Of a DNA stretch of 64,000 nucleotides, positions 20,149 through 39,272 are shown piece after piece; position 1 is the stretch's first letter; every line of letters begins with the position of its first letter. Made by a program: the position numbers and the translations under genes. Source of the stretch: Georgenia yuyongxinii (GTDB lineage Bacteria > Actinomycetota > Actinomycetes > Actinomycetales > Actinomycetaceae). Location of the stretch: positions 2,232,001-2,296,000 of the forward strand of contig NZ_CP040915.1 of assembly GCF_006352065.1 (NCBI RefSeq), given 5' to 3'. The notes beneath the pieces are model-generated. The model was not told where the DNA came from and searched no databases. It saw nothing but the letters and a program-made list of their open reading frames with translations.

Positions 20149-20150
20149 CA

Positions 20151-23048: not shown

Positions 23049-23510
23049 TCAAGCCGATGGAGGTTTCACTGCAATGCTCTGGATTTCCAGGCGCAGCTTT
23101 GGGTCAGCCGCCATCCTCGTCACCTCGACCGAGGCGCTGGTGGGCACATGCCCTTGGAACCACTTCTTCTGGTATTTGTTCACAGTATCCTGATCTTCAT
23201 CCACATTCGTGAAGAACCGAGTCATGTAGACGACGTCGCTCCTACTGCACCCAGCCGCTTCGAGCCGCTGGTCGAGATTGTCGAAAATGATTTGGAGCTG
23301 CCCCTCGATGTCCCGTGGAATAGCATCGAAGACCTCGGGCACGTGTGGGTGGTCGTGGTAGGTAGGAGACGCCGACACACCTGAGATAAACACCATCGTG
23401 CCCGCCGACGCTCGGATCGCCGGCACAAAGGGACTATTGATGCTGGGGTCATGCCCATCATGGTGAATAATTTCGAGATTGCTCGATGTGGACTGGTTGA
23501 CAAGACTCAT
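23049..23510 (-). CDS. RidA/YjgF/YER057c-family protein
   Basis: The 153-residue protein has the Rid fold: FISGVSASP near residue 63, QLQIIFDNLDQRLEAAG near 95, VVYMTRFFTN near 117 and VTRMAADPKLRLEIQ near the end. Rid proteins hydrolyse reactive enamine/imine intermediates or act as uncharacterised deaminases. Start choice is uncertain: ATG 23510 gives a normal family length, while ATG 23555 would add 15 residues. It follows the ABC binding-protein gene on the same strand by about 80 bp and is probably its last operon member. Codon use is less GC-rich than the flanking chromosome. Confidence 0.85.
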   Translation of the reverse strand: MSLVNQSTSSNLEIIHHDGHDPSINSPFVPAIRASAGTMVFISGVSASPTYHDHPHVPEVFDAIPRDIEGQLQIIFDNLDQRLEAAGCSRSDVVYMTRFFTNVDEDQDTVNKYQKKWFQGHVPTSASVEVTRMAADPKLRLEIQSIAVKPPSA

Positions 23511-23592
23511 CGTTCTCGGTGTCCCTTCGGTGTAGTGATCGACCAAATAGCCCATCGGGTCGAAGAATCCATCTTCAGGCAGGTCGTCGGGA

Positions 23593-24609
23593 TCACCCCG
23601 CCGAGCAGGCGGTATCCGCAGCCCGGTCGGGAGCGACTTCCCTGAGCGCCGACAGGTCGACGTAGTCGCAGACCTCGTAGTCCTCGGGAAGGCTTCCCTT
23701 CTCCACCAGCCATCGAGCCATGCGCTCAAGAAGCCCGTGCGTTTCCGCCGAGAACTGCGGATTGAAGTCGAGTTCTGCGTTGTCGATCGCCTCGTGATAC
23801 TGCGCGTCGGTCAAGCCGTGCATCCCGGACACTGCTTCCAGTGCACCTTCAGGGTCGGACTCAATTTCCTCCGCCCCCCTAGCGAGCACCTCCAGCACAC
23901 CAGCGACAGCCTCTGGATTCTCCGAAAGGTAGTCGTTCCTGACGATCAGCGTGAGCACCGAGGGCCACGTCTCAAGCAGTTCGAACTCCCCGCTCTCGAT
24001 CGCCGTCAGAGCTTGCGCCAAGAACGTCGCGGCCGCATCGATCTCCCCCTTAAGGAGCGCAGGCACATGGCTGCCGGGATCCAGGTAAATCACCTCAACG
24101 TCGTCAGCAATGCCGTTCTCGGCGAGGTACTCCGCGAGCCAAAACTCCGTTGAGGAGCCCTGATTCACGGCAATCCTCTTGCCGACCAAATCCTGAGGTG
24201 ACTGGATGTCCTTGGAAGCGACAAAGCGCAGCCCGGTCCACGACGTGACCTGACCGACGATCGTCGCATCATGGCGATCAACGAAGCTTACGCTCGGCAG
24301 GTCGCCGGCGACGAGCATTGTTCCATCCTGGGTCGCAAAGGCCTCGGCCGACTCGGGGCCCGACGAGAAGCCGGTGACGTTGATGTCAAGGCCCGCCTCC
24401 GAGAAGCTGCCCCGAGCATCGTCCTCACCCAGGAAGACGTGCCATCCGATCATGTTTGACGAGATGAACAGATTTGCTGGCGGAGCGCTGGCATCTGCGC
24501 CGTCGCCAGGCGTGTCCGCCCCCTCTGCACCCCGACTGCACGCTGCTAGCAGCGAAACAGACATGGCCAGTGCTGCGGCCGCTGCGATGGCCGTCTTGTG
24601 CCTTCTCAC
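23593..24609 (-). CDS. ABC transporter substrate-binding lipoprotein (SsuA/TauA/NMT1 type)
   Basis: The 338-residue protein has a lipoprotein signal peptide ending in LLAACS (Cys about residue 23). The mature part matches the nitrate/sulfonate/taurine binding family, with GPESAEAFATQDG, GKRIAVNQGSSTEFWL and LLKGEIDAAATF. It captures ligand outside the membrane for the adjacent permease and ATPase. GTG 24609 follows GGAGGAG at 8 bases. A 178-bp gap separates it from the permease gene upstream. The family fits alkylsulfonate, taurine or nitrate-like anions, which agrees with the sulfonate hypothesis for this block. Confidence 0.9.
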   Translation of the reverse strand: MRRHKTAIAAAAALAMSVSLLAACSRGAEGADTPGDGADASAPPANLFISSNMIGWHVFLGEDDARGSFSEAGLDINVTGFSSGPESAEAFATQDGTMLVAGDLPSVSFVDRHDATIVGQVTSWTGLRFVASKDIQSPQDLVGKRIAVNQGSSTEFWLAEYLAENGIADDVEVIYLDPGSHVPALLKGEIDAAATFLAQALTAIESGEFELLETWPSVLTLIVRNDYLSENPEAVAGVLEVLARGAEEIESDPEGALEAVSGMHGLTDAQYHEAIDNAELDFNPQFSAETHGLLERMARWLVEKGSLPEDYEVCDYVDLSALREVAPDRAADTACSAG

Positions 24610-24787
24610 GATGTGATCTCCTCCTGCGGGCGAAGCCGCAGTAGCTAGTCAACCTGTGGTTGCCCCGAGCAGCCATGCCACATCCTGGCCACTGGGGGTG
24701 GTTCAGTGCACAGTCGTTCACACTGGGAATGGTGACAGCGTCATCTCTCGCTGGGAGATGGTGACCCTGTCATCGGTCGCCCTGCCC

Positions 24788-25633
24788 CTACAACGTCTCG
24801 GAGAACTCCTTACCGACATATGCCCCACCAAAACGCCGGATCAATCGGCGGAAGAGGTAATCGATACTGAAGCCGATTACGGAAAGACAGAGCAATCCTA
24901 CGAACATCCTGTCGACCAGCATCGAGTACCGAGATTGGATGATCAAAAATCCGATACCTTCTTCGGCAGCGATCAACTCGGCGGCGACGACCGACATGAA
25001 AGCCAGCCCAAGGCCGATCCGCATCCCCGCTAGTATGTACGGAATAGCCGAGGGAAACACAACGAGTCTAAAAACGCTGAACCCACTCGCCCCAAGGGTT
25101 TGCGCAGCCCGAATCCGGGTGGGGGGCACCGAGGCAACGCCGGTCATCGTATTGAAGAAGATCGTGATGAACGCCGTGTACCCGACGAGCACAACTTTCG
25201 ACATCTCCCCGATTCCGAACCAAATGATCATAAGGGGTACCAGTGCGACGGGAGAGATGGGCCTCACAAGATTCATCACGGGCATGATGAGTCCGCGCGC
25301 CGCGGCAATCCGTCCGGCGGCGGATCCGAGGATGATCGCCCAGACACACCCGTTCGCGTAACCGATAATGATCCGCATGAGGCTCGCACCCACGTGGTTG
25401 GCGAGCTCGCCGTCCACGATCATCGAATACGTCGTACTCAGGACGGTCCAGGGTGACGGTAATATGAGGGAATTAACGAAGGTCCCTGACGCGATCGTCC
25501 AAAGAATCAGCAAGGACGATACGGAGACGATGGAAAGCCCGAGTGGGCTTCGCAGTGACTTGCCCCAGCGACTTGGCGACCGCTCAGACCGTTCGTCCAC
25601 CGGCTCGGCCGATTTGGTGCTGATGGACGTCAT
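24788..25633 (-). CDS. ABC transporter permease (SsuC/TauC type)
   Basis: The 281-residue inner-membrane protein has about six hydrophobic segments and the permease EAA-like loop in RIRAAQTLGASGFSVFRLVV near residue 195. A cytoplasmic N-terminus of about 30 residues precedes the first segment (LSIVSVSSLLILWTI). The family imports sulfonates, nitrate or similar small anions. ATG 25633 overlaps the stop of the ATPase gene as ATGA, so the two are translationally coupled. Confidence 0.92.
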   Translation of the reverse strand: MTSISTKSAEPVDERSERSPSRWGKSLRSPLGLSIVSVSSLLILWTIASGTFVNSLILPSPWTVLSTTYSMIVDGELANHVGASLMRIIIGYANGCVWAIILGSAAGRIAAARGLIMPVMNLVRPISPVALVPLMIIWFGIGEMSKVVLVGYTAFITIFFNTMTGVASVPPTRIRAAQTLGASGFSVFRLVVFPSAIPYILAGMRIGLGLAFMSVVAAELIAAEEGIGFLIIQSRYSMLVDRMFVGLLCLSVIGFSIDYLFRRLIRRFGGAYVGKEFSETL

Positions 25634-26499
25634 GCCGCACCCGCCTCTTGCGCGCGAGTACGGTTCGCGCTCTGAGGGACGTGAGAGATGGGATCGAGAA
25701 TGAGGTCGGTCATTTCTTCTACTACCTCCACGATGTGGCGATCGGTCACCTTGCGCGGGCGCTCCGACACGATCTCGATGCATCGGGTCAGCTGTCCGCG
25801 CGTCCCCATGACGTAGACGAAATCACCGAGGAGGGCGGCTTCGCCGATGTCGTGTGTCACGAAAAGGATTGTCGCTCCCGTGCGTTCGTGCAGGTCTTGC
25901 AACTGTTCTTGCAAGAGAGAACGTGTGAGGTAGTCGAGCGCCCCGAAGGGCTCGTCCATCAGTAGGATTCCGGGTTGCAGCACGAGGGCACGAGCGATCT
26001 GCACACGTTGCTGCATCCCGCCACTCAGCTCGAAGACAAACTTGTCGCGTGCTTCCGGCAAGCCGACCAAGGCAAGTGCCTCCCTCGCTCGCTCGGCGCG
26101 CTCTCGCTTCGAGACTCCGGCCACTTTGAGACCGAACTCAACGTTCCGCTGGGCGGTGAGCCAGGGCATGAGCGATCCCTGAACGTCTTGGAAGACCACG
26201 ACGCGGTCGGATCCAGCACCGTCGACTTGGCGGCCGTCGACCAACAGCTGCCCGCGGGAGGCCTTTTCGAATCCAGCAACGAGATTGAGAAGGGTTGTCT
26301 TCCCGCAGCCCGAAGGTCCAATGATGCAGTTGATGGTGCCAGGCTGCATCGTGATGCTGAGGTCTTCTATCGCCGTGGTGGAAGCACCCAGAGACGCTGC
26401 ATAGGACTTCGAAAGTCCGCGGATTTCGACGCTCAGTCCGGTGCTCTGACCATTGTCGAGACGGGGGCGAGTTTGTTCACGACGTGTCGGAGTAGACAT
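25630..26499 (-). CDS. ABC transporter ATP-binding protein (SsuB/TauB type)
   Basis: The 289-residue ATPase has Walker A GPSGCGKTT near residue 64, the Q-loop VVFQDVQGSLMPWLT, the signature ELSGGMQQRVQIARAL, Walker B ILLMDEPFGALD and the H-loop VTHDIGEAALL. It powers the adjacent nitrate/taurine-type importer. Starts at ATG 26499 and ATG 26508 are both possible relative to GGAGG. A near-consensus promoter lies immediately upstream at 26530-26558. It is the first gene of the transporter-RidA operon. Confidence 0.94.
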   Translation of the reverse strand: MSTPTRREQTRPRLDNGQSTGLSVEIRGLSKSYAASLGASTTAIEDLSITMQPGTINCIIGPSGCGKTTLLNLVAGFEKASRGQLLVDGRQVDGAGSDRVVVFQDVQGSLMPWLTAQRNVEFGLKVAGVSKRERAERAREALALVGLPEARDKFVFELSGGMQQRVQIARALVLQPGILLMDEPFGALDYLTRSLLQEQLQDLHERTGATILFVTHDIGEAALLGDFVYVMGTRGQLTRCIEIVSERPRKVTDRHIVEVVEEMTDLILDPISHVPQSANRTRAQEAGAA

Positions 26500-26513
26500 T
26501 GGCACCATTGCCT

Positions 26514-26558
26514 CCAATCGATTGGGCTGACTGTAGGGTCACCCTCTTGGGCTGTCAA
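26514..26558 (-). promoter_or_regulatory. Near-consensus promoter with palindromic operator before the ABC operon
   Basis: On the minus strand TTGACA (26558-26553), a 17-bp spacer and TACAGT (26535-26530) form a strong sigma-70-type promoter. The perfect palindrome CCAATCGATTGG (26514-26525) covers the expected start site. Its pattern NCAANCGNTTGN is the same as the GCAAACGTTTGC sites elsewhere in this block. Confidence 0.75.
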
Positions 26559-26763: not shown

Positions 26764-26795
26764 CGAAGTCCGTCCCTCCATTGGGTCGACCTCGA

Positions 26796-26833
26796 ACGCT
26801 AGGGCAAACGTTTGCGGTTGGTCAAGCGTTTGC
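26796..26833 (-). promoter_or_regulatory. LacI-type operator inside promoter spacer (copy 1)
   Basis: On the minus strand TTGACC (26825-26820) and TAGCGT (26801-26796) are 18 bp apart. The palindrome GCAAACGTTTGC (26804-26815) fills the spacer. A second, imperfect site TCAAGCGTTTGC (26822-26833) lies 18 bp away, overlapping the -35. It is the duplicated counterpart of the promoter at 32465. Confidence 0.7.
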
Positions 26834-27036: not shown

Positions 27037-27066
27037 TTGACGACCGCAAACGATTGCACCTACGGT
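27037..27066 (+). promoter_or_regulatory. LacI-type operator inside zwf promoter spacer (copy 2)
   Basis: TTGACG (27037-27042), ACC, GCAAACGATTGC (27046-27057), ACC, TACGGT (27061-27066): an 18-bp spacer filled by an operator-like palindrome with one mismatch. It lies about 125 bp before the zwf start and has the same layout as the promoter at 32465. The remaining 26.5-27.2 kb gap holds no supported gene besides the dehydrogenase fragment. Confidence 0.72.
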
Positions 27067-27190: not shown

Positions 27191-28732
27191 GTGGGACCGA
27201 CAGCAAACGCGCAGGTAGGCATCACGTTGGCGGATCCGCTTGACCGTCGCCTTCCCCGCATTGCCGGCCCGTGTGGGCTCGTCATCTTCGGCGTCACGGG
27301 GGACCTCGCCAAGCGCAAGCTGATGCCGGCGATCTACGATCTCGCGAACCGCGGACTCCTCTCCCCGGCCTTCGCGCTGACTGGCTTCGCCAGGCGCGAC
27401 TGGTCGACTGCGGACTTCGCCCAAGTCGTCCGAGACGCGGTCCGTGTGCACGCCCGCACCCCGTTCGACGAGCGGACGTGGGAGCAACTCGCGTCCGGGT
27501 TCCGCTTCGTCCAGGGCGAGTTTTCGGACGACGACGCCTTTGACCGCCTTGCTGCCACGGTGAAGTCGCTGGACGAGGAGCGCGGGACGGGTGGGAACCA
27601 TGCGTTCTACCTCTCGGTGCCGCCCGGCTCGTTCCCGCTCGTGTGCGCCCAGCTCGCACGCTCGAGGTTGTCTTCCCCCGAGCCAGAGACCTGGCGGCGC
27701 GTCGTGATCGAAAAGCCCTTCGGCCACGACCTCGCCTCCGCACGCGAGCTCGACGCCGTCGTCTCCGACGTCTTCGCGCCGGGCTCGGTCTTCCGGATCG
27801 ACCACTACCTCGGCAAGGAGACGGTCCAGAACATCTTGGCCTTGCGCTTCGCCAACCAGCTGTTCGAGCCGATCTGGAATTCGAATTACGTCGACCATAT
27901 CCAGATCACCATGGCCGAAGACATCGGCATCGGCGCCCGCGCCGGCTACTACGACGGCGTCGGCGCCGCCCGGGACGTCATCCAGAACCACCTCCTCCAG
28001 CTGCTCGCACTCACAGCGATGGAAGCCCCCGTCTCCTTCGACCCGGCGGCACTGCGCGCAGAGAAGGAGAAGGTGCTCTCCGCCGTCCGGTTGGGGGCCG
28101 ACCTCGACGCCACTACTGCCCGCGGTCAGTACGCCCCAGGATGGCAGGCGGGGGCGTACGTGCGCGGCTACCTCGGCGAGGACGGTATCCCCCCGGGCTC
28201 TGCCACGGAGACCTATGCCGCGCTGAGACTAGAGGTAGACACCCGCCGATGGGCCGGCGTGCCGTTCTACCTACGGGCTGGGAAGCGCCTTGGGCGCCGG
28301 GTGACGGAGATCGCCGTCGTCTTCAAGCGCGCGCCGCACCTACCTTTCGACCTCGGCGCCACGGAGGAACTCGGGCAGAACGCGCTCGTCATCCGCATCC
28401 AGCCAGACCAGGGCGTGACGATCCGGTTTGGTGCGAAGGTCCCTGGGGCCGCAACGGCGGTACGGGACGTGACGATGGATTTCGGCTATGGCCATGCGTT
28501 CACCGAGGACTCACCCGAGGCCTACGAGCGGCTTATCCTCGACGTCCTCCTCGGCGAGCCGCCACTCTTCCCCCGGCAGCGCGAGGTCGAACTCTCCTGG
28601 GAGATCCTCGACCCCGTGACCGCCAAGTGGGAGTCCTCGGACCAGATCCAGCACTACCGGCCCGGTTCGTGGGGCCCCATAAGCGCCGAGCAGATGCTCG
28701 CCCGTGACGGACGCGCCTGGCGCATGCCATGA
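27191..28732 (+). CDS. zwf: Glucose-6-phosphate 1-dehydrogenase
   Basis: The enzyme oxidises glucose 6-phosphate to 6-phosphogluconolactone with NADP. The 513-residue protein has the nucleotide motif FGVTGDLAKRKLMPAIYDL, EKPFGHDL, and the G6PD signature RIDHYLGKE at about 202-210. Its C-terminal domain is complete (YERLILDVLLGE). GTG 27191 is chosen because GGAGGG lies 9 bases upstream; a TTG at 27143 lacks this. opcA follows at 16 bp. Unusually for actinomycetes, tkt, tal and pgl are not adjacent; instead the pair sits inside an accessory block behind a LacI-type operator. A role on a G6P analogue is possible but unproven. Confidence 0.95.
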   Translation: MGPTANAQVGITLADPLDRRLPRIAGPCGLVIFGVTGDLAKRKLMPAIYDLANRGLLSPAFALTGFARRDWSTADFAQVVRDAVRVHARTPFDERTWEQLASGFRFVQGEFSDDDAFDRLAATVKSLDEERGTGGNHAFYLSVPPGSFPLVCAQLARSRLSSPEPETWRRVVIEKPFGHDLASARELDAVVSDVFAPGSVFRIDHYLGKETVQNILALRFANQLFEPIWNSNYVDHIQITMAEDIGIGARAGYYDGVGAARDVIQNHLLQLLALTAMEAPVSFDPAALRAEKEKVLSAVRLGADLDATTARGQYAPGWQAGAYVRGYLGEDGIPPGSATETYAALRLEVDTRRWAGVPFYLRAGKRLGRRVTEIAVVFKRAPHLPFDLGATEELGQNALVIRIQPDQGVTIRFGAKVPGAATAVRDVTMDFGYGHAFTEDSPEAYERLILDVLLGEPPLFPRQREVELSWEILDPVTAKWESSDQIQHYRPGSWGPISAEQMLARDGRAWRMP

Positions 28733-28748: not shown

Positions 28749-29672
28749 ATGACCGTCACCATGTCGGGCACGACCTCCGCCGCAGTGAGTACCCGGCTGG
28801 TCGAGGTGCGCGAGGCCACCGGGATCTCCGCGCTGGGCCGGGTACTCACCCTCATCATCGTCGCGACCGACAACGACGTCGCAGAGCGGGCGATCCAGTC
28901 CGCGAAAGTCGCCTCACGTGAGCACCCGTGCCGGATCATCGTCATGGTGTCCGAGGATGGGCCTGGAAACACTCGGCTCGACGCCGAGATCCGGGTCGGC
29001 GGCGATGCCGGCGCGAGCGAGGTCATCGTCCTTCACGCGCGCGGCCGGGCCCGGCAGGCGTCCGACGCTATCGTCGTCCCGCTCCTGCTGCCCGACGCCC
29101 CGGTCGTCGCGTGGTGGCCAGGGACACCACCGCGCGATCCGGCCGGTGACCCTATCGGAGCCATTGCGCAGAGGCGGATCACCGATGTCTCCTCAGCCCC
29201 GGATCCGCTCGCCGCGTTGCACCGGCTCGGGCGGGCGTACTCCCCTGGTGACACGGACCTCGCATGGTCACGGGTGACGCTCTGGCGCGGTCTGCTCGCC
29301 GCGGCTGTCAACGAGCCGCCGCACGAGGCGATCACCGCCGCGACCGTCACGGGTACGTCGAGCAAGCCTTGGGTCCACCTACTAGCCGGCTGGCTCGCCG
29401 AGCGGCTCGGAGTGCCGGTCCAGCTCGCCGCCAAAGCCCGTGAGGTCATCACTACAGTCGAGCTGGCGCGGCCGAGCGGGCCCATCATGCTGCGGCGCAC
29501 CCCGGCCTCCTCTGTCGCCTTTCTCACCCGGCCCGGGCGCCCGGACCAGCGCATCAACCTTCCCCTGCGCTCCGTCCAGGATTGCCTCATCGAGGAACTG
29601 CGGAGTCTCCACCCCGACCAGACCTACGGGCGAGCGCTCACCCGTGGACTGCCCGTCCTGGAGGAACGATGA
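28749..29672 (+). CDS. opcA: Glucose-6-phosphate dehydrogenase assembly protein OpcA
   Basis: OpcA is a partner protein needed for G6PD activity in actinobacteria and cyanobacteria. The 307-residue protein matches in order: VLTLIIVATDN near residue 35, EHPCRIIVMV, LPDAPVVAWWPGTPP near 125, and a C-terminal LHPDQTYGRALTRGLP. ATG 28749 follows AAGGGG. It is transcribed with zwf. Its stop overlaps a short downstream frame (ATGA at 29669). Confidence 0.93.
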   Translation: MTVTMSGTTSAAVSTRLVEVREATGISALGRVLTLIIVATDNDVAERAIQSAKVASREHPCRIIVMVSEDGPGNTRLDAEIRVGGDAGASEVIVLHARGRARQASDAIVVPLLLPDAPVVAWWPGTPPRDPAGDPIGAIAQRRITDVSSAPDPLAALHRLGRAYSPGDTDLAWSRVTLWRGLLAAAVNEPPHEAITAATVTGTSSKPWVHLLAGWLAERLGVPVQLAAKAREVITTVELARPSGPIMLRRTPASSVAFLTRPGRPDQRINLPLRSVQDCLIEELRSLHPDQTYGRALTRGLPVLEER

Positions 29673-30153: not shown

Positions 30154-31245
30154 ATGAGCAGTCGCCGCAGCGAAGGACAATCAGAGCACTCCGATTCACT
30201 CAACGGAACCAAGACCGCGACCACCAGACCGCAACGTCCGCCCACGCTCCGTGAGGTAGCCAGTGTCGCGGGAGTCGACGTATCGACCGCCTCCCGTGCA
30301 CTGCGGACAGAGACGCGCGGCACCGTCAAGTCCGAGACTCTCGAGCGAGTGGTGGCAACGGCAGAAGCGCTCGGCTACCGGGCCAACCCGTTCGCGCGCG
30401 GATTGAAGGACCATCGGTCCATGACAGTCGGGATGCTCATCCCCGACCTTGCGAACCCGCTGTTCCCACCAATCGTGCGTGGAATCGAGGACGGACTCGG
30501 AGAGCACGGCTATGTGGCCATTCTCGCGAACACGGACATGGACCCTGATCGCGAGCGCCACTTACTGGACCTCTTCTTGGAACGCCGTGTCGACGGACTC
30601 TTCCTGGCGACAGCTTTACGGTCTTACCCATTGATCGAGAAGGTCGTGGAGTCCAGGATCCCAACTGTTCTGGTAAATCGCACCATGGATGACAAACGGG
30701 TGTCGATGGTCACGACGGACGACTATCACGGTATGGGGCTGGCGCTCCGGCATCTCGTGAATCTGGGGCACAAGCGCATCGCTTTTGTCGGGGCTGCACC
30801 TTCTACATCCACCGGATACAACCGGCACAAGTACTTTCTCGCCTGGATGGACAGGCTCGGGCTTCCGCTCGACGAGGAGCTGCTCGTCACCGCTCCGTGG
30901 TTCAACAAGCAGAGCGGCGCCGAGGCCTGTGACGAGCTGATCAATCGCGGGCGGGAGTTCACGGCGATCATTGCCGCAAGTGACATGATCGCTCTCGGCT
31001 GCTATAGCTCGCTGCGCGCTCATGGCCTGAAAATCCCAGACGATGTCTCCGTTGTGGGGTACAACGGTTCACGGTGGTGCGACGAGTTCAACCCACCACT
31101 GACGGCCGTCCATGTACCAAAGTACGACCTCGGTCGTGCAGCCGCAGATCTTATGCTCAGCCTGCTCCAGGGCCCCGACACGGAACCGTCGAGAGTCTTC
31201 TTGGACACCTCGCTTCAGGTGCGCGAGTCCACGCGCCAGATTTGA
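30154..31245 (+). CDS. LacI-family transcriptional regulator
   Basis: The 363-residue protein has a LacI helix-turn-helix at about residues 30-75 (TLREVASVAGVDVSTASRAL, EALGYRANPFARGL), preceded by an unusual ~28-residue polar N-terminal extension. A periplasmic-binding-protein-like effector domain follows, with VGMLIPDLANPLFPPIVRGI, LGHKRIAFVG and DDVSVVGYNG. Effectors of this family are usually sugars or their derivatives. The GCAAACGTTTGC-type sites at four places in this block fit a LacI-family repressor (central CG), and this is the only LacI gene in view. Confidence 0.94.
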   Translation: MSSRRSEGQSEHSDSLNGTKTATTRPQRPPTLREVASVAGVDVSTASRALRTETRGTVKSETLERVVATAEALGYRANPFARGLKDHRSMTVGMLIPDLANPLFPPIVRGIEDGLGEHGYVAILANTDMDPDRERHLLDLFLERRVDGLFLATALRSYPLIEKVVESRIPTVLVNRTMDDKRVSMVTTDDYHGMGLALRHLVNLGHKRIAFVGAAPSTSTGYNRHKYFLAWMDRLGLPLDEELLVTAPWFNKQSGAEACDELINRGREFTAIIAASDMIALGCYSSLRAHGLKIPDDVSVVGYNGSRWCDEFNPPLTAVHVPKYDLGRAAADLMLSLLQGPDTEPSRVFLDTSLQVRESTRQI

Positions 31246-31354: not shown

Positions 31355-32092
31355 TCAGCCGGCCAATCCCTGCCACACGAGCACACCCGCCGCCACCCCC
31401 AGGAAGGCCAGCACGACGCGTCCGAACACGGCCGGATCGAGCAACTTGCCCAGGCGCACCCCCGGCACCAAGAAGGCGGCCACGGGGACCAGGGCGAGCA
31501 GCCCTTCCAGGAGAAGTTCAGTGCTGTAGGCACCCAACCCTGCCAAGGTCGCCACCTGGGCCACCGAGAACACGCCGAAGAGCGCAGAGAGCGAGAAGAC
31601 GTAGGCGCCCGGCGTGAGCCGCAGGCTGTGGATGTAGGTGGCGAGTAATGGACCTGAGATGCCCGTCGAGCCCTGGAGCGCTCCTGCCGCGAGCCCGATC
31701 GGTGGCGACAGCCAGAAGCTCGCGCGGCGCGAGACATGCAGTCGTGGCGCAGCGACACGCAGGACGACGTAGACGAGGATGAGCGCAGCCAGCACAAGCG
31801 AGAGCAGCCGGCCGTCCACCGTAGTTAGCGCGACAGTGCCCACGACAGCGCCTATCACTCCCGTGAACAGCAAATTCAGTAGGTGACGGCTCTGCGAAGC
31901 GCTCTTCACGTGGTTAACGACGAGCCAGAGGTTCGACACGACGCCCGGGATCGACATGATGATCACCGCGCGCTCGACGCCTAGGAAAGCCGCCATCACG
32001 GGGACTGCGACCTGCGGAAGGCCGGTGCCGGTCACCCCTTTGACGAATGACCCGACCGCCAGGGCACCCACAATGACGAGGAGATCCGTCAT
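31355..32092 (-). CDS. TauE/SafE-family sulfite/anion exporter
   Basis: The 245-residue membrane protein has about eight hydrophobic segments and the family motifs GSFVKGVTGTGLPQVAVPVM near residue 15 and GALQGSTGISGPLLATY near 140. TauE/SafE proteins export sulfite, sulfoacetate or related anions made during sulfonate degradation. ATG 32092 starts the frame. It is convergent with lacI and divergent from the dehydrogenase operon. A GCAAACGTTTG-type site lies about 190 bp upstream at 32283. Its presence supports a sulfonate pathway but the exported ion is inferred. Confidence 0.85.
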   Translation of the reverse strand: MTDLLVIVGALAVGSFVKGVTGTGLPQVAVPVMAAFLGVERAVIIMSIPGVVSNLWLVVNHVKSASQSRHLLNLLFTGVIGAVVGTVALTTVDGRLLSLVLAALILVYVVLRVAAPRLHVSRRASFWLSPPIGLAAGALQGSTGISGPLLATYIHSLRLTPGAYVFSLSALFGVFSVAQVATLAGLGAYSTELLLEGLLALVPVAAFLVPGVRLGKLLDPAVFGRVVLAFLGVAAGVLVWQGLAG

Positions 32093-32282: not shown

Positions 32283-32294
32283 CCAAACGTTTGC
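32283..32294. promoter_or_regulatory. LacI-type operator CCAAACGTTTGC
   Basis: The core palindrome CAAACGTTTG is perfect. It lies about 190 bp before the TauE-like gene and about 235 bp before the dehydrogenase gene. No clear -35/-10 pair flanks it, so it may be an auxiliary operator. Confidence 0.55.
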
Positions 32295-32464: not shown

Positions 32465-32494
32465 TTGACGTATGCAAACGTTTGCTCTTACGGT
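32465..32494 (+). promoter_or_regulatory. LacI-type operator inside dehydrogenase promoter spacer (copy 3)
   Basis: TTGACG (32465-32470), TAT, GCAAACGTTTGC (32474-32485), TCT, TACGGT (32489-32494): an 18-bp spacer filled by a perfect palindrome. The start codon is at 32527 after AGGAGGGG. Confidence 0.78.
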
Positions 32495-32526: not shown

Positions 32527-33495
32527 ATGGAGCAGCCAAGGGTGGCGATCCTCGGAACGCGGTACCGGGACTTCTCGATCGAGGAGGAACAGCTCGGCCC
32601 GCTCGGCGCAACACTCATCAGTGGGCCTGGCGGTTCGCCGGCGGACATTCTGGAGGTGGCAAGGGGTGCCACGGTCATCCTCGCGGGTTCCCGCCCCCGA
32701 TTCACCGCGGAGGTACTCGCAGGTTTGTCCTGTCGCGGGATCGTCAGGTACGGAGTTGGCACCGATTCCATCGACCTCGAGGCGGCACACCGTCTCGGCA
32801 TCGCCGTCGCCCGCGTATCGGACTACGGCACAGAGGCGGTGGCCTTCCACGCGGTCTCGATGGCAGTGGCCCAGTTGAGACGCCTCAACGAGGTGGATCG
32901 CTCCATCCGCAGCGGGAGGTGGGGGTTCGGCGAAGTCAGGCCCTTGCACGAACCGAGCACACTGGCGGCAGGTGTCATCGGCTACGGGCGCATCGGCCGG
33001 CAGTCGGCGGCGTACCTGAAGGCCCTGGGCATGCGGGTGAGCGCCTACGACCCGTATGCCGACATCCCCGCGGACCACGACGTCGCCGACGTCAGCCTCG
33101 AGGAACTTCTCGCCACCACCGACGTCGTCCTGCTCCATGCGGCCGGCCGCCCGGACGGAAGGCCCCTGCTCGACGCCAAGGCGCTGGGGCGGATGCGCCC
33201 AGGAAGCATCCTCGTCAACACCGCCCGTGGATCGCTCATTGACTTTGCGACATTGGTCGAGGCCCTCCGTGCAGGCCGGCCGGCTCGCGCCGCGCTCGAC
33301 GTCTTCCCAACCGAACCGCCGGACCTCAGCGCCCTCAGTGACGTGGCCGACAAGGTTCTGCTGAGCCCGCACATGGCGTGGTACACGGAGGAGTCCGAGG
33401 CAGACATGCGGCAGAAAGCCGCCGCTGAGGCGGCCCGGCTGCTGCAGGGCGAGCCCCTCGCCGACCCTGTCGTGGAGATTGGACAACTGGCATGA
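32527..33495 (+). CDS. D-isomer-specific 2-hydroxyacid dehydrogenase family protein
   Basis: The 322-residue NAD-dependent enzyme has the Rossmann motif GYGRIG at residues 152-157, the substrate Arg in NTARGSLID near 245, and the catalytic His in LLSPHMAWYTEE near 290. This family includes SlcC, the (S)-sulfolactate dehydrogenase of sulfolactate pathways. With SuyAB, TauE and YeiH homologs nearby, sulfolactate or a related 2-hydroxyacid is a reasonable substrate guess. ATG 32527 follows AGGAGGGG. The stop overlaps the creatininase-like gene (ATGA). A 5' fragment of this gene is duplicated at 26763. Confidence 0.88.
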   Translation: MEQPRVAILGTRYRDFSIEEEQLGPLGATLISGPGGSPADILEVARGATVILAGSRPRFTAEVLAGLSCRGIVRYGVGTDSIDLEAAHRLGIAVARVSDYGTEAVAFHAVSMAVAQLRRLNEVDRSIRSGRWGFGEVRPLHEPSTLAAGVIGYGRIGRQSAAYLKALGMRVSAYDPYADIPADHDVADVSLEELLATTDVVLLHAAGRPDGRPLLDAKALGRMRPGSILVNTARGSLIDFATLVEALRAGRPARAALDVFPTEPPDLSALSDVADKVLLSPHMAWYTEESEADMRQKAAAEAARLLQGEPLADPVVEIGQLA

Positions 33496-34250
33496 GCAAC
33501 GACCTCAGCACGATGACGAGCCCGGAGGCAGCCGAGTCGTTTGCCCGGTCCCGCACCGCTGTGATCCCTCTTGGCAGCGTCGAGCAGCACGGTCCGCACC
33601 TACCCAACGGCACTGACATCTTCGCCGCCGAACTCGTCGCCCGGGCGACGGCCGAGAGCCTTGATGCTGTATATGTACCACTCTCGCCGTACGGGGTCAC
33701 GCCGATCCACGCCGGGCACCCGGGCACGGTCACGCTGCGGCGGGAGACCTTCGAGATGTTGCTGACGGACGTGTGCAGCGAGCTCATCGCCCTTGGGATT
33801 CGTACGCTCGTGCTCGTCAACTGGCACGAGGGCAACATCGCTTCGATGGATGCCGTGGCAACCGACCTACAGCATCGAACTGAGGCCGTCTTCATCTCGG
33901 CCCAAGCGTGCTACACCGCCCAGCGTGTCTACCGGGAGGCGGGTGGTGAACTCACTCACGGTGGAGGGATCGAGACTCTGGCCGTCATGGCGTACGACCC
34001 TGCATTGGCCAAGGTGGACCGAGCAGGCGAGCCGACCAGGCCCGAGGGTGCTGATGCGCTGGACGCCATGCGACGTTCTTCCGAGGTCTACGGATTCGTA
34101 ACGGACGTCTCCGAACTCGCCGACGACGGCTGGTACGGCAACCCGTGGTGGGCCACGTCTGACCGGGCCACCGCCTTCCCCACCCTCGTGGCGCAGGAAA
34201 TCGTCGAGCGGGTCCGATCCGTCGTCGCGGCCCACGAAGCACGTTCCTAG
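33492..34250 (+). CDS. Creatininase-family amidohydrolase
   Basis: The 252-residue protein has the family motifs IPLGSVEQHGPHLPNGTDIF near residue 27 (metal ligands Glu, His, Asp) and LVNWHEGNIASMDA near 112. The usual NGHGGN motif is changed to NWHEGN here. HGGGIETLAVM near residue 155 supplies the third region. Members hydrolyse creatinine, formamides or lactam/lactone-like rings; the substrate here is unknown. A lactonase or amidase step in the sulfonate pathway is possible. It is translationally coupled to the dehydrogenase. Confidence 0.87.
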   Translation: MSNDLSTMTSPEAAESFARSRTAVIPLGSVEQHGPHLPNGTDIFAAELVARATAESLDAVYVPLSPYGVTPIHAGHPGTVTLRRETFEMLLTDVCSELIALGIRTLVLVNWHEGNIASMDAVATDLQHRTEAVFISAQACYTAQRVYREAGGELTHGGGIETLAVMAYDPALAKVDRAGEPTRPEGADALDAMRRSSEVYGFVTDVSELADDGWYGNPWWATSDRATAFPTLVAQEIVERVRSVVAAHEARS

Positions 34251-34379
34251 CCCGCTGTACTCATCACGCGCCGGGGTCACCCCTGCCAGTGCACAAGCGC
34301 AGGGCGGGGCGGGGCGATCGCACAGTACCAGGCAACGTCGACCGTCGGCGTAGCCACAACACCGCAGGAGGACATGGTC

Positions 34380-35447
34380 ATGGAGAATAGGGTCAGGCTC
34401 GCATCAGTCGGTCTTGGACGCTGGGCACGGGTGCTCGCGCGCGGCGCCCAGCGTGGTGACACTGTCGAGCTCTATAGCTGCTTCAGCCGCAACGAGGAAC
34501 GACGTCGCGCCTTCTGTGATGAGTACGGCATACCACGCAGCGCCGCAACCTACGAGGAGCTGCTCGCAGACCCGGAGGTAGAGGGCGTCATCATCACCAC
34601 CCCGAACGACACGCATCGGGACGTCATCATCCAAGCGCTCGAGGCCGGCAAGGCCGTCTACACGGACAAGCCGATCGCGCACAGCTTGGAGCACGCGAGC
34701 GAGATCGCGGCCGCCGTCCGGGCGACCGGGCAGGTCTTCGCGGTCGGGCACAGCTCGCGCAGGCTGTCCGGCCATCGGGAGATGCGGCGCTGGATCGACT
34801 CCGGGCAGATCGGCGAGATCAGCCTCGCGGAGGCGAACTTCTCGAACGAGCGCGGCCTGGAGCTGACGCCTGACACGTGGCGCTTCTACGCCGACAAGAG
34901 CCCGGGCGGGGCGTTCATCCAACTCGGCGTGCACCATGCCGACACCCTGCAGTACCTGCTCGGGCCGGTGAAGCAGGTCACCGCTCACGCTCGGCGCCTG
35001 TTCACCAAGGCAGAGGTGCCCGATGCCGTCATGGCCATCCTCGAGTTCGAGAGCGGGGCCCTGGGGTACATCGGTACCGGGTGGGCATCCCCCGGCGTCT
35101 ACTCAATGAATCTCCTCGGGACGAAGGCCAACCTCATGTACGACCTGGACTTCACCCACTGGGACGAGTCGCACCTGGCGGACGACTATTCGTCACTCCG
35201 ATCGCAGTTCTACGGCGAGTCCGAGCGCCAGACCGTCGACCTGCAGCGAACGGACATGTTCCGCGAGCAGCTGGAGGAGTTCGGGCTGGCGATCCGTGGT
35301 CAGGCCGCGGTAGAGGTGGGGCCAGAGGAAGCAGTGCGCGCACTCGCCGTGGTTCGAGCGGTGCTGGAGTCGTCCGCGCGCAACGGTGCGGCGGTGAGCA
35401 TCGACGAGGTGATCGCCAACGCGGACACCAGGCAGACCGTGGCTTGA
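34380..35447 (+). CDS. Gfo/Idh/MocA-family oxidoreductase
   Basis: The 355-residue protein has an N-terminal NAD(P)-binding domain (VGLGRWARVLARGA at residues about 10-23, TTPNDTHRD, and TDKPIAHSLEHA near residue 98). A C-terminal alpha/beta domain follows, with GGAFIQLGVHHADTLQYLLG near residue 180. Members oxidise sugars, inositols or hydroxy acids. ATG 34380 is preferred because GGAGG is 8 bases upstream, against 2 bases for ATG 34374. It lies 129 bp after the creatininase-like gene and 3 bp before the cupin gene. The substrate could be a sulfosugar or polyol; this is inference. Confidence 0.9.
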   Translation: MENRVRLASVGLGRWARVLARGAQRGDTVELYSCFSRNEERRRAFCDEYGIPRSAATYEELLADPEVEGVIITTPNDTHRDVIIQALEAGKAVYTDKPIAHSLEHASEIAAAVRATGQVFAVGHSSRRLSGHREMRRWIDSGQIGEISLAEANFSNERGLELTPDTWRFYADKSPGGAFIQLGVHHADTLQYLLGPVKQVTAHARRLFTKAEVPDAVMAILEFESGALGYIGTGWASPGVYSMNLLGTKANLMYDLDFTHWDESHLADDYSSLRSQFYGESERQTVDLQRTDMFREQLEEFGLAIRGQAAVEVGPEEAVRALAVVRAVLESSARNGAAVSIDEVIANADTRQTVA

Positions 35448-35450
35448 CCG

Positions 35451-35819
35451 ATGCCGGTCTACCGTGGCGTCGAGCTTGGCTTCACGGAGCTTGCCGGCCG
35501 GCTGTCGGCCGATCCTCTACCCGGGGACGGCCTGACAGACGATGTGAGCATGCGGGTAGTGCGGATCCGGCCGGGTCCGCGCACCCCGCATCGCCATCCT
35601 CACAGCTGCGAGGTCATGTTCGTCGCACAGGGCGACGGGCGGTTCTGGGAGGGCGACACGGTTCACCAGGTCCGTGCGGGTGACGTCTTGTTCGTCCCGA
35701 CCGGTGTCCCGCACGCGACCGTCTGCGTGGGTGACACCGACATCGTGCTCGCATGCTTCTTCCCCCGGCGGGATCTGCCCAGCAACATCGAGGAGCTCCC
35801 AGGTCCGGTACGTCACTGA
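35451..35819 (+). CDS. Cupin-domain protein
   Basis: The 122-residue protein is a single small cupin barrel. Metal-binding motif 1 is PHRHPHSCEVMFVAQGDGRF near residue 46 and motif 2 is AGDVLFVPTGVPHA near residue 75. Small cupins act as isomerases, epimerases, lyases or binding proteins for sugars and acids. It starts 3 bp after the oxidoreductase stop and shares its transcript. A 13-bp inverted repeat follows directly. Confidence 0.87.
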   Translation: MPVYRGVELGFTELAGRLSADPLPGDGLTDDVSMRVVRIRPGPRTPHRHPHSCEVMFVAQGDGRFWEGDTVHQVRAGDVLFVPTGVPHATVCVGDTDIVLACFFPRRDLPSNIEELPGPVRH

Positions 35820-35859
35820 CGTGTGTGGGTCGGGGCCTGTCCACAACGACCCACACACG
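35820..35859. repeat. Perfect 13-bp inverted repeat between cupin and yeiH-like genes
   Basis: CGTGTGTGGGTCG (35820-35832) and its complement at 35847-35859 flank a 14-base loop. It starts one base after the cupin stop and ends 25 bases before the next start. It may be a terminator/attenuator or an operator. Confidence 0.6.
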
Positions 35860-35884
35860 TCGCGAGCATTGATAAGGGTGAGTC

Positions 35885-36901
35885 GTGCACCGCTTCGTGA
35901 CGAACAAGCAAGCCTCTTCCCGCATTCGCACGACGCTGGGTGCCGCCTGGCCCCCGCTGCTCGTGGCCATCGGATGCGCGGCTCTGGCCCGCGTCGTCCC
36001 GCTCCTCAGCCCTCTGCTCACTAGCCTCATCGTGGGCGCGGTGGTGGCGAATACTCGCCTGGTGCGCCTCGGGGCGCTCGGGCAGGCCGGCCCGATCGCG
36101 AAGACCCTGCTACGGGTTGGCATTGTCCTCGTCGGCTTCCGACTGTCGCTCGAGGCACTGGCCGGAGTCGGTGGCCGAGGGGCCGTCGTCATCATCGTCA
36201 CCGTCGTCCTGGTCTTTCTTGCGACCTGCTGGGTCGGTGATCGGTTGGGGCTGGACCGCGGTCTTGTCACGCTCATCGCCAGCGGGTTCGCCATCTGCGG
36301 TGCGGCTGCGATCGCTGCCGTGGAGGGGGCGATCCGCCGACGCGATGAGGACGTTGCGCTCTCCATCGCCATGGTGACGCTATTCGGCAGCGCGATGATC
36401 ATCATCGTCCCGCTCGCCGGCGCCGGGCTGGCACTCAGCCCGGAACAGATTGGGGTGTGGGCCGGGGCGAGCATCCACGAGGTCGCCCAGGTGGTTGCCG
36501 CAGCTTCTATCACGGGCGGGGCAGCGGTGGCGGTCGCCACAACAATCAAGCTCGGTCGCGTCCTGCTCCTCGGAATTGTCTACAGCGCCGCCCGCTTTCG
36601 GGACGGAGCGCCTGGGGGTCTGGACCAGGTCGCCCAGCGCAAGGTGCGGCTCGTGCCGTGGTTCGTCATCGGGTTCGTCCTCGCGATGCTCCTGCGCTCC
36701 AGCGGGCTCTTGCCGGCGACAGCGCTTGGCGCGATCGATGCGCTCGCCAACGTGAGCCTCGCCGCCGGAATGTTCGGCCTCGGACTAGGCGTGCGATTCG
36801 CCCAGCTCTACCCGCTGCCGTGGAGGGTGGTCGGGCTCTCAGCGGTGTCCACGGCTGTGGCTGCCAGCGCTTCGCTCGGGCTCGTTGTCCTGCTCTTCTA
36901 G
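35885..36901 (+). CDS. YeiH-family (Cons_hypoth698) membrane protein, putative sulfate exporter
   Basis: The 338-residue protein has about ten hydrophobic segments. Family blocks visible are LLRVGIVLVGFRLSLEALAG near residue 75, ASGFAICGAAAIAAVEGAI near 137, WAGASIHEVAQVVAAAS near 193 and PWFVIGFVLAML near 260. YeiH-like proteins are annotated as putative sulfate exporters and recur in organosulfonate clusters. GTG 35885 follows AAGGGTGA. Its end overlaps the end of the convergent GntR gene by 4 bases. Together with the TauE homolog it suggests release of inorganic sulfur from a carbon skeleton. Confidence 0.86.
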   Translation: MHRFVTNKQASSRIRTTLGAAWPPLLVAIGCAALARVVPLLSPLLTSLIVGAVVANTRLVRLGALGQAGPIAKTLLRVGIVLVGFRLSLEALAGVGGRGAVVIIVTVVLVFLATCWVGDRLGLDRGLVTLIASGFAICGAAAIAAVEGAIRRRDEDVALSIAMVTLFGSAMIIIVPLAGAGLALSPEQIGVWAGASIHEVAQVVAAASITGGAAVAVATTIKLGRVLLLGIVYSAARFRDGAPGGLDQVAQRKVRLVPWFVIGFVLAMLLRSSGLLPATALGAIDALANVSLAAGMFGLGLGVRFAQLYPLPWRVVGLSAVSTAVAASASLGLVVLLF

Positions 36902-37722
36902 GACTTTGGGTCAGTCATCTGAGGAGTACGGTCGGCCGCTTGCCGGCTCATGGCGTTGAGGTGCCGTTCCGCCGCCGCCCGCGCTCGCAGAACATGCTCG
37001 CGTGCAGCCTCGGCAGCCCCTTCGGCGTCCCCACTCTCGATCGCGGCAAGAATCCGCAGGTGTTCCTTTCGGGAAGCCGCGGCGCGGCCCTCGACCTCTA
37101 GCGTCGTCCGCATGCCCTCGAGTAGAAGGTCGTAGATGACTGCCTGAGTCTGTTCCAACAGAGAGTTCCCGGCCGCCTGGACGATCCGCGTGTGGAAGAG
37201 GGCGTCGAGCCGTTGCACCTTGTCGTTCTGAACGTCGTCGCTGTCCAGGGCCCCCTCGAGAGTCGCGTACGCAGCGCGAATCCTGGCGAGTTCGCCGGGG
37301 TCCTTACGCTGGCTCGCCCACCGAGCGGCGGGGACCTCGATGACCTCACGCATAGCGAAGAGCTGGGACAGATCCTCCTCCCAGTCCTGGAGCGATCCTC
37401 GCAGCTTCTGCTGGGTCGCCGGCTCTGCCACGAACACGCCTTGGCCGTGCTTGACCACGAGCCGTCCCTCCGCTTCGAGCGTACGCACGGCCTCGCGCAC
37501 TGAGGGGCGGCTGACCTCCAGTGCCGCGGCGAGGTCCCGCTCCGCGGGGAGTCGTTCCCCGGGCTGGAGATGCCGCTCGGTCATCACCCGGAGGATCTCG
37601 CCCCTGATGCGCGCGATCAGGCCGGACCGACCGATCACCTGCCAGCCCTCGGTCATCTCGCGGTCCTGCGGTGCTGTCACGCGGACGCTCCTCTTGTCAT
37701 TGACATCTGTGACGAAATACAT
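36898..37722 (-). CDS. GntR/FadR-family transcriptional regulator
   Basis: The 274-residue protein has a GntR winged helix at about residues 30-100 ([40 protein letters not shown]) and a FadR/FCD all-helical effector domain after it (metal-binding His in [15 protein letters not shown]). FCD regulators sense small carboxylic acids. It is divergent from suyA by 47 bp, with a FadR-type operator in the gap. Control of suyAB by the substrate or product acid is likely. Confidence 0.92.
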
Positions 37723-37750
37723 AGGCTATCAAACACCAGAGGTCGGACCA
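37700..37750 (+). promoter_or_regulatory. suyA promoter and FadR-type operator
   Basis: TTGACA (37700-37705) and TAGGCT (37722-37727), 16 bp apart, form a promoter candidate pointing at suyA. AGGTCGGACCA (37740-37750) fits the FadR-type GT-N3-AC operator pattern and sits just after the -10, where a bound regulator would block initiation. AGAAGGAGG precedes ATG 37770. Confidence 0.55.
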
Positions 37751-37769
37751 CTTACCAGAAGGAGGGGCC

Positions 37770-38069
37770 ATGATCAGACAGCCAGACTTCCTGGCACACA
37801 GGCGGGGCGACTTTGTCGCTGTCGCGGTTCGGGACGTCGAACCAGGAGAGGCCACAGTCGGCTATCTCGACGAGACCCCATCGGCCCAGATCGACGTCAC
37901 TCAGCCCGTGCCGCTCGGCCACAAGGTTGCACTGTCCCATGTGGCAGCAGAGGCAGACGTCATCGAGTACGGGCTGCGGATCGGCACAGCCAGCAAGGAC
38001 ATCACCAAGGGCGATTACGTCCACATCCACAACCTGAGGAGTGCCCGGTGGCAAAGAAGCCTCGCCTGA
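37770..38069 (+). CDS. suyA: UxaA-family small subunit (SAF domain), probable sulfolactate sulfo-lyase alpha SuyA
   Basis: The 99-residue protein is a stand-alone SAF domain: [16 protein letters not shown] near the start, [10 protein letters not shown] near residue 48 and [19 protein letters not shown] near 67. The UxaA family includes altronate/galactarate dehydratases and (2R)-sulfolactate sulfo-lyase, which splits sulfolactate to pyruvate and sulfite. The split into ~99 and ~386 residues is the SuyA/SuyB arrangement. ATG 37770 follows AAGGAGG. Its end overlaps the large-subunit start by 22 bases. A split sugar-acid dehydratase is the main alternative. Confidence 0.68.
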
Positions 38070-39208
38070 CAGGATTTCGGCGGTCGAACGGGGCGGTGGG
38101 CGTGCGCAATCACGTCGCGATCCTCCCCGTGGACGACCTCTCCAACGCAGCTGCCGAGGGCGTCGCCGCGCTCGTGCCGGGCGCACTTCCCCTCCCCCAC
38201 GCATACGGGCGGCTTCAGTTCGGGGAGGACCTTGACCTGACATTCCGTACGCTTATTGGGATCGGCTCCAACCCCAACGTCGCAGCTGTCATCGTCATCG
38301 GTATCGAGCCCAATTGGACCAACCGGATCGTCGAGGGCATCCAGAAGACCGGCAAGCCCGTCGAAGGATTTTCCATCGAGGGCAACGGCGATCTCAAAGT
38401 GATCGAGCTCGCCTCACGCGTGGCCAAGGAGTACATGCAGGCCGCTAGCGAGGAAGCACGCGAGCCCATCGACTGGTCCGACATCCTCCTCACGACCAAG
38501 GACGGCGAGTCGGACACCACCACCGGCCTCGGTTCATGCCGAATCACCGCTTACCTGAGCGACAAATGGGTCGAGGCCGGCGGCACGATGATCTTCGGAG
38601 AGACAAGCGAACTTACCGGCGGCGAGCACCTCATCGCCGAGCGCTGCATCGATGACGTGGTCCGGGCACGCTTCCAGGGGTTCTACGACGACTACATCCA
38701 GATGATCGAGGACACCGGCGCGAACCTTCTCGGCTCGCAACCCACCCAGGGAAATATCGCCGGCGGCCTGTCCACTATCGAGGAGAAGGCCCTGGGCAAC
38801 ATCGTCAAGACGGGCACCGCGCCGATCGTCGGTGCCCTCGCGCCCGCTGAGGCACCGAGCCGCCCGGGGTTGCACTTCATGGACACCTCCTCGGCCGCTG
38901 CGGAGTGCGTCACTTTGATGGCCGCTGGCGGGGGCGTGATCAACCTCTTCCCGACGGGGCAGGGCAACGTCATTGGCAACCCCATCATCCCCGTCATCAA
39001 GATCACAGCTAACCCGCAGACCGCGGACCTGATGAAGGACCACATCGACGTCGACTGCTCGGGCTTGCTCACCGAAGGGCGCTCGGTTGAGGACGCTGGC
39101 GAGGAGCTGATCAACATCGTCGAACGAACCGTGAACGGCAGGCTCTCGTGCGCCGAGGCTCTTGGCCACCGCGAGTTCACCATCACCAAGCTGTACCGGA
39201 GTGCTTGA
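38048..39208 (+). CDS. suyB: UxaA-family large subunit, probable sulfolactate sulfo-lyase beta SuyB
   Basis: The 386-residue protein opens [20 protein letters not shown] and has [45 protein letters not shown] near residue 158, [17 protein letters not shown] near 185, [20 protein letters not shown] near 230 and [18 protein letters not shown] near 300. As I recall the families, these agree better with SuyB than with UxaA, whose equivalent blocks read GGSDAFSG and GNxSPGNKAGG. SuyAB releases sulfite from (R)-3-sulfolactate. GTG 38048 has GAGGAG 6 bases upstream. A strong terminator follows. Two sulfur-anion exporter homologs nearby support the call. Confidence 0.68.
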
Positions 39209-39220
39209 CCCGGACGACAC

Positions 39221-39272
39221 GCACGCGGCGACGTCCCCGTCTGACCGGCCAGGCGGGGACGTCGTCGCGTGC
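39221..39272 (+). terminator. Terminator after suyB
   Basis: A 19-bp stem (39221-39239 with 39254-39272, one G-U pair) closes a 14-base loop 12 bases after the suyB stop. It marks the right end of the functional block. Confidence 0.8.

Follow-up and report, generated by a model that had tools for sequence, protein, structure and literature searches.

A probably acquired genomic island of Georgenia yuyongxinii with predicted sulfolactate sulfo-lyase genes and a recurring four-gene module

The genome of Georgenia yuyongxinii is a single contig of 4.17 Mb (NZ_CP040915.1), and the window analysed here is a stretch of 64,000 nt of it (positions 2,232,001–2,296,000). Our subject is the block at window positions 23049–39272, which an earlier note on this DNA had put forward as a system for the breakdown of organosulfonates. 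All the genes named in that note are found where it had placed them, as open reading frames with Pfam or NCBIfam matches. Two overlapping genes at the right end of the block, suyA (37770–38069, plus strand) and suyB (38048–39208, plus strand), are predicted to encode the small and the large subunit of a sulfolactate sulfo-lyase. Four further plus-strand genes, here called the module, encode a 2-hydroxyacid dehydrogenase (32527–33495; Pfam 2-Hacid_dh), a creatininase-family hydrolase (33492–34250; PF02633, 180 bits), a Gfo/Idh/MocA-family dehydrogenase (34374–35447; Pfam) and a cupin (35451–35819; PF07883). The block also holds an importer operon, zwf and opcA, two exporter homologues and two regulators.

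SuyAB enzymes, with Fe(II), cleave (R)-sulfolactate into pyruvate and sulfite. The pair in the block consists of two separate genes, a SAF-type small subunit (Pfam SAF) with 57% identity to SuyA of Rhodococcus koreensis, and a GD_AH-type large subunit (Pfam GD_AH) with a GTG start. The large subunit matches 314 records of a plasmid collection, the best 13 of them with 58–70% identity, ahead of the next one listed with 39.5%. These 13 are found in Rhodococcus, Sinorhizobium, Methylobacterium, Paracoccus, a Rhodobacteraceae bacterium, Cupriavidus pinatubonensis and Caballeronia. The Cupriavidus gene lies near genes annotated as hpsN and hpsO, and that of R. koreensis adjoins an aldehyde dehydrogenase, a hydroxyacid dehydrogenase and an Ldh-family gene, while that of Paracoccus versutus pTAV3 lies near a GntR regulator and a sulfate-exporter gene, with a histidinol-dehydrogenase gene further off. 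When a single genome of each species was scanned and the best 80 of at least 589 relatives were kept, identities were 59–82%. A tree of 105 rows separates the 90 SuyB rows, among them that of the window, from 15 UxaA-like rows with a support of 100/100; the tool flags long branches that meet at the outgroup join. The tree leaves out L001 and L121–L147 (copies, plus extra SuyB proteins of G480, G501 and others), and retains among its 90 SuyB rows two copies, L096 (of L039) and L119 (of L073).

Four cysteines are conserved across the UxaA/GarD superfamily, sulfolactate sulfo-lyase excepted, according to PMC6336799, and they were equated with alignment columns by our own reading. At three of the columns cysteine is found in 13 of the 15 UxaA-like rows but never among the 90 SuyB rows; at these positions the window has Leu31, Arg55 and a gap. 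The fourth holds cysteine in 15 of 15 UxaA-like rows and in 87 SuyB rows; the remaining three, those of the window, L016 and L017, together make up one clade and have aspartate instead (Asp152, window 38501–38503). A sugar-acid dehydratase of the altronate, galactarate or fuconate type would belong to the same superfamily, in which a heteromeric fuconate dehydratase is reported (PMC6336799), but the identity to that group is at most 39.5% among the plasmid matches listed, against 58–82% to SuyB, and, like every one of the 90 SuyB rows, the protein has lost three of the four family cysteines. The large subunit scores 132.9 bits with the curated galactarate dehydratase model, which has a cut-off of 730.85. 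A dehydratase is hardly credible on this evidence, and it was dropped as a candidate on the tree and the residues. The earlier note had named grouping of the large subunit with altronate or other sugar-acid dehydratases as the result that would speak against its proposal, and in the tree no such grouping is seen. By identity, tree position and residue signature the pair is SuyAB, a predicted (R)-sulfolactate sulfo-lyase and not a sugar-acid dehydratase, as the note had proposed. The recombinant SuyAB of Desulfovibrio DF1 splits sulfolactate into pyruvate and sulfite, according to PMC6278857. Another split UxaA-family pair, 37% identical to SuyB and with arginine at the SuyB-type position, was seen on a Variovorax plasmid (L152, 2505–7268); it adjoins a hydroxyacid dehydrogenase and an Ldh-family gene and is perhaps another substituted-lactate lyase.

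The first gene of the module had been described as SlcC-like, and this did not hold. In a tree of the dehydrogenases 37 SlcC-type rows from suy loci are separated from all 11 module rows with a support of 97/96, placing the window protein outside the SlcC-type group, and its assignment as SlcC was dropped on this position. In the same tree, which has flagged long branches and leaves out the dehydrogenase of G803, the module dehydrogenases fall into three sets, that of L144 neighbouring the SlcC-type group, so that there may have been more than one recruitment of this gene. No ComC (Ldh_2 family) is present in the block, and the genome has one match only, with 37% identity, about 0.2 Mb away. 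In the creatininase the metal-site residues E31, H33, D42, H112 and E161, which we take to be metal ligands, are invariant in five of five sequences, and so are H47, H49, E54 and H88 of the cupin, which thus keeps three histidines and one glutamate. The structures predicted for the two proteins are of fair quality, with mean pLDDT values of 78.8 and 86.9, and neither points to a substrate: the creatininase model matches creatininases at 21–25% identity, and the cupin model is about equally similar to many cupins, among them DddK, TM1459, KdgF and oxalate decarboxylase. The nearest solved relative of the module Gfo/Idh/MocA protein is 3db2, with 287 bits to the window protein and 448 bits to that of G803 (L173, 13108–14181), and it is named only as a putative oxidoreductase. 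None of the 60 solved relatives listed is named as a GH188 NAD-dependent sulfoquinovosidase, a search by name without direct comparison.

The distribution of the module was followed in 85 SuyB loci (80 from the genome scan and 5 plasmid loci), many of which end at contig ends, with score thresholds for presence that we set ourselves. The creatininase, Gfo/Idh/MocA and cupin genes share the same four of these loci and no other (L016, L031, L039 and L073), each of which also has a dehydrogenase. Identities to the window proteins are 60–81% in L016, from a Mycobacteriaceae metagenome-assembled genome (MAG), and 30–44% in L031 and L039 (Actinomycetes MAGs) and L073 (an Acidobacteria MAG). A creatininase profile of five sequences was then run on 247 genomes of Acidobacteriota, 346 of Actinomycetota and 299 of the phylum of Moorella stamsii (E at most 1e-40 for the first two and at most 1e-50 for the third, with some candidates per genome scored). 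Nine of the 892 genomes score 313–437 bits and the next listed 153; G000, G102 and G688 among the nine were already known. All nine have a cupin and a 2-hydroxyacid dehydrogenase in the same gene run and eight also the Gfo/Idh/MocA gene, which in G803 lies about 12.6 kb from the rest. Near the creatininase of G076 (141 bits), one of three low-scoring ones, none of the module partners is present. Together with G099–G101 this gives 12 module genomes, 8 of Actinomycetota, 2 of Acidobacteriota and 2 of Bacillota type, and in 10 of the 11 besides the window the four genes stand in one run, G803 being the exception.

The gene order is dehydrogenase–creatininase–Gfo–cupin in the window, L016, L115 and L117, dehydrogenase–creatininase–cupin–Gfo in L116 and L118, Gfo–creatininase–cupin–dehydrogenase in L031, L073 and L114, creatininase–cupin–dehydrogenase–Gfo in L039, and creatininase–cupin–Gfo–dehydrogenase in L144. 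The four genes are a recurring module, found in three phyla and in five orders. The carriers encoded in the module loci, NMT1/SsuA-type ABC systems, a dicarboxylate symporter and MFS proteins, fit small anions. Two loci of anaerobe type, L144 (7549–10869) and L166 (12014–15285), have an HMGL-like gene and a two-subunit CoA ligase after the module in the same order. Proteins of LVIVD or choice-of-anchor-B-like type are encoded near module or SuyAB genes in L039 (15810–17021), L115 (2652–3815), L145 (4010–5653) and L166 (6499–7614), the matches in the last two being weak and under the model cut-off.

These counts also bear on the idea that the module replaces the SlcC/ComC racemase and interconverts (S)- and (R)-sulfolactate via sulfopyruvate to feed SuyAB. 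With our thresholds ComC is found near SuyB in 47 of the 85 loci but in only one of the four module loci, and in L073 and L114 a dicarboxylate symporter accompanies the module. However, L039 and G803 have ComC-like genes besides the module, and since two redox enzymes would be enough for a racemase, the creatininase and the cupin would be left unexplained, making this explanation quite improbable.

A LacI-family regulator is encoded at 30154–31245 (plus strand; Pfam LacI and Peripla_BP_3), and the motif GCAAACGWTTGC, with at most one mismatch, is found at four places in the 64 kb, every one inside the block. These predicted operators are located upstream of the importer operon (26804–26815), upstream of zwf (27046–27057), between the TauE gene and the module (32283–32294, one mismatch), and about 40 bp upstream of the first gene of the module (32474–32485). 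They amount to 8 strand-matches against 0.23 expected, and none of 100 shuffles reaches 8. The motif was derived from an intergenic comparison of the block and other loci, and its presence there is therefore not blind, whereas its absence from the other 47 kb of the window is a blind test. Regulators with 67, 50, 48 and 47% identity to that of the window are encoded in L016, L148, L116 and L115 respectively. Among 17 other loci scanned, L016 has two sites between suyB and the importer (0.21 expected), L116 has one exact site before the module operon, and L148, a SuyAB locus without the module, has three one-mismatch sites beside ComC, suyAB and lacI (0.07 expected), indicating that a related regulator is tied to SuyAB in another genome. 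Lone one-mismatch matches lie within gene bodies of L073 (and of L119, a copy of L073), L144 and L173, where they were taken for background, and in an intergenic position in L118, which is excepted from this. A longer and looser motif with 2 mismatches gave 4 matches against 1.33 expected, a number reached in 4 of 100 shuffles and not clearly above chance.

The predicted LacI regulon, with GCAAACGWTTGC as its operator, would thus probably consist of the importer, zwf-opcA, the module and perhaps TauE, the last resting on a divergent intergenic stretch and possibly wrong. The suyAB genes are probably controlled by the adjoining FadR/GntR-type regulator, which is encoded divergently from them (36898–37722, minus strand; Pfam GntR and FCD) and is 57% identical to one beside suyAB in L016. 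The grouping of the genes in the earlier note is borne out by their regulation, since a single LacI regulon seems to cover the importer, zwf-opcA, the operon that starts with the dehydrogenase, and perhaps TauE.

The importer operon is on the minus strand and encodes a TauB/SsuB-type ATPase (25630–26508; best fit TauB model NF008421, 217 bits, under cut-off), a TauC/SsuC-type permease (24788–25633; best fit TauC model NF007545, 182 bits, under cut-off), a substrate-binding protein of SsuA/TauA type (23593–24609; best fit SsuA TIGR01728, 115 bits with a cut-off of 163.5), and at its end a Rid-family protein (23049–23555; PF01042, 59 bits; TIGR00004, 47 bits, under cut-off), for which the open reading frame of 226 aa is too long and the probable start is at 23555. 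The plus-strand genes zwf (27191–28732; glucose-6-phosphate dehydrogenase, TIGR00871, 630 bits, above the NCBIfam cut-off) and opcA (28761–29672; assembly protein of that enzyme, TIGR00534, 242 bits, just under the cut-off of 256) follow, zwf being an extra copy with 81% identity to a second one elsewhere in the genome. As a LacI operator stands before zwf the view of zwf-opcA as a bystander was dropped, though no zwf turned up in the module loci of other genomes, and the two genes probably belong to the system because they share the predicted regulon with the importer and the dehydrogenase operon. Homologues of sulfur-anion exporters, as the earlier note had recognized, are a TauE/SafE-family protein (31355–32092, minus strand; PF01925, 72.5 bits) and a YeiH-type putative sulfate/sulfite exporter (35885–36901, plus strand; PF03601, 191 bits); both pass the Pfam family cut-offs, YeiH failing that of TIGR00698, and transport of sulfite or sulfate by them is a prediction.

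The reading that we consider fairly likely is that the block is an acquired organosulfonate-catabolic island, with import, conversion by the module to (R)-sulfolactate, cleavage by SuyAB, and export of sulfite or sulfate. The TauABC-type importer would, by homology, bring in the sulfonate, and the module, associated with SuyAB in several genomes, would oxidise and hydrolyse it to (R)-sulfolactate. SuyAB, by its family membership, would remove sulfite from the latter to leave pyruvate, and YeiH and TauE may expel the sulfite or sulfate. In the likeliest chemistry the Gfo/Idh/MocA protein would oxidise a hydroxyl or hemiacetal, and the creatininase would then hydrolyse the resulting lactone, amide or 1,3-diketone; the dehydrogenase might interconvert 2-oxo and 2-hydroxy groups, and for the cupin an isomerase or lyase function is conceivable, the order of the steps being a guess.

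This reading is supported by the identity, tree position and cysteine signature of SuyB, by the LacI operators, and by the link between the module and SuyAB. SuyAB lies at most 5 kb from the module in 6 of the 12 module genomes (G000, G099, G100, G101, G102 and G680), a share that is biased since 5 of the 11 other module genomes were found via SuyB. It is located elsewhere in the genome in G480 (two copies) and G688, and G803 has on the contig of the module a divergent Suy-like pair (40% identity) with the Arg55 signature, adjoining YeiH and ComC-like genes. In the less biased draw of Actinomycetota, SuyB is present in 2 of 4 other module genomes as against 12 of 345 overall (hypergeometric p 0.006). 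On the SuyB tree, counted over well-supported branches with the window included and the copies L096 and L119 dropped, the distribution of 6 module rows and 39 full-flank rows lacking the module requires at least four gains or losses; the link has therefore arisen or been kept more than once. The contiguous run of L073 holds only the symporter, the module, GntR and SuyAB, so that the module alone would there have to bridge an imported compound to sulfolactate. The second SuyAB locus of G480 (L146, 8479–15226) has other Gfo-family (33%) and creatininase (26%) genes, together with an HpaI-type aldolase, a luciferase-like monooxygenase and an amidase.

Several observations weigh against this reading. 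SuyB is absent from three of the 12 module genomes (G331, G356 and G431), and the dependence of the sample on SuyB has been mentioned above. No LacI operator is found before suyAB of the window, and none by the motif scan in L115 with its 47% identical regulator. HMGL-like and CoA-ligase (succinyl-CoA-ligase-like) genes come after the module in the anaerobes G688 and G803, and pyruvate-dehydrogenase-like genes in G480; since these downstream genes differ, the substrate of the module may not be one compound. The island could then hold two pathways, SuyAB and the exporter serving sulfolactate and the module a sulfur-free sugar, cyclitol or cyclic amide. This would agree with the genomes lacking SuyB, with the different genes after the module in G480, G688 and G356, with the matches of the Gfo/Idh/MocA protein and the creatininase to the inositol 2-dehydrogenase and 3-dehydro-scyllo-inosose hydrolase models of NCBIfam, far under cut-off, and with LacI regulators often responding to sugars. 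We consider it unlikely, as SuyAB stands in the module locus in six genomes and the SuyB tree calls for repeated gains or losses, the TauE-type exporter and the module share an operator-bearing intergenic region, and the related LacI of L148 has sites beside suyAB.

In Paracoccus and Cupriavidus SuyAB reportedly occurs with a sulfate-exporter gene (work by Rein in 2005 and Mayer in 2010). The block resembles Paracoccus versutus pTAV3 in having SuyA, SuyB, a GntR regulator and a YeiH-type exporter in one locus. It differs from the Paracoccus and Cupriavidus systems in its upstream genes, having no hpsN or hpsO, no SlcC-type dehydrogenase and no ComC, and it has aspartate for Cys152. In Paracoccus wurundjeri a tandem sulfofucolytic–sulfolactate sulfolyase pathway is described in PMC12421959, which has in common with the block an ABC importer, oxidation steps, SuyAB at the end and a TauE homologue (there the proposed exporter). 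Proteins of gluconeogenesis and the pentose-phosphate pathway are raised on the sulfosugar according to the same paper, which we count as a likeness. The enzymes it gives, an SDR dehydrogenase, a lactonase, an enolase-type dehydratase, an aldolase and SlcC/ComC, are not among the identified genes of the block. Described routes to sulfolactate from dihydroxypropanesulfonate (DHPS), from cysteate, by a sulfo-Entner–Doudoroff pathway or from sulfofucose may likewise end in SuyAB (PMC12421959 and PMC6278857), but none of the 16 identified block genes encodes HpsN, a sulfolactaldehyde dehydrogenase, a sugar-acid dehydratase or an aldolase, and it is very improbable that the block runs one of them.

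The pairing of a Gfo/Idh/MocA dehydrogenase with a creatininase-family hydrolase is shared with the IolG–IolN inositol route, but unlike IolN the creatininase of the block misses the cut-off of model NF041098 (50.9 bits against 245), and we know of no link of IolG–IolN to a sulfonate, a cupin or a 2-hydroxyacid dehydrogenase. No publication describing the module was found in the open literature, where most subscription papers are missing, and, as far as searched, no paper joins a creatininase or a cupin to a sulfolactate pathway, in agreement with the earlier note. The SuyAB system is known; the module upstream of it has so far been unrecognised. A more specific proposal, which is possible though we lean somewhat away from it, is that the module is an undescribed pathway of at least three phyla. 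It would take an unrecognised environmental organosulfonate of more than three carbons (for instance a lactone, lactam or sugar acid that is sulfonated) directly to (R)-sulfolactate, with no need of an aldolase or of SlcC/ComC, and ring opening or C–C cleavage by the creatininase would be the decisive step. A retro-Claisen cleavage of a sulfosugar, sulfomethyl-malate in the anaerobes, and a nitrogen-containing substrate, with regard to the RidA, amidase and PALP neighbours, were also considered, each as no more than a possibility.

The GC content of the block is 0.60–0.69 in 2-kb bins against 0.70–0.74 to the left, and to the right up to 50 kb; past 58 kb it falls again to 0.66. At third codon positions it is 0.68–0.86 in block genes against 0.91–0.95 in three flanking genes. 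A SuyB orthologue is absent from 98 relatives including 8 congeners, where the matches are at most 36% identical. In the right flank the next gene but one (42300–43250) has close relatives in 4 of the 8 congeners, and 40.2–43.9 kb is matched at 76–95% DNA identity in the 3 congeners compared, whose ensuing 15 kb or so has no match above 200 bases to window 18–48 kb. The composition, the absence of SuyB from the relatives and the comparison of the right flank together indicate that the block is probably foreign and was acquired. A possible integrase remnant lies at its right edge (39438–39728, minus strand; PHROG integrase, E 0.031, very weak, and no Pfam match), and no direct or inverted repeat of 11 bases or more is common to 22601–23049 and 39206–40300. 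To the left of the block a gene at 20115–20876 encodes an ArsR-type helix-turn-helix fused to a low-molecular-weight phosphatase (arsenate-reductase-like) domain.

SuyAB is one known exit of the sulfur of C3-sulfonates in soil, sea and gut, and the published routes into it that we found start from DHPS, cysteate, sulfolactate or sulfosugars. The module context offers a lead to the function of the solved structure 3db2. A conserved front end that repeatedly joins SuyAB across lineages suggests that a sulfonate or a route not yet known is involved, and names the genes to test.

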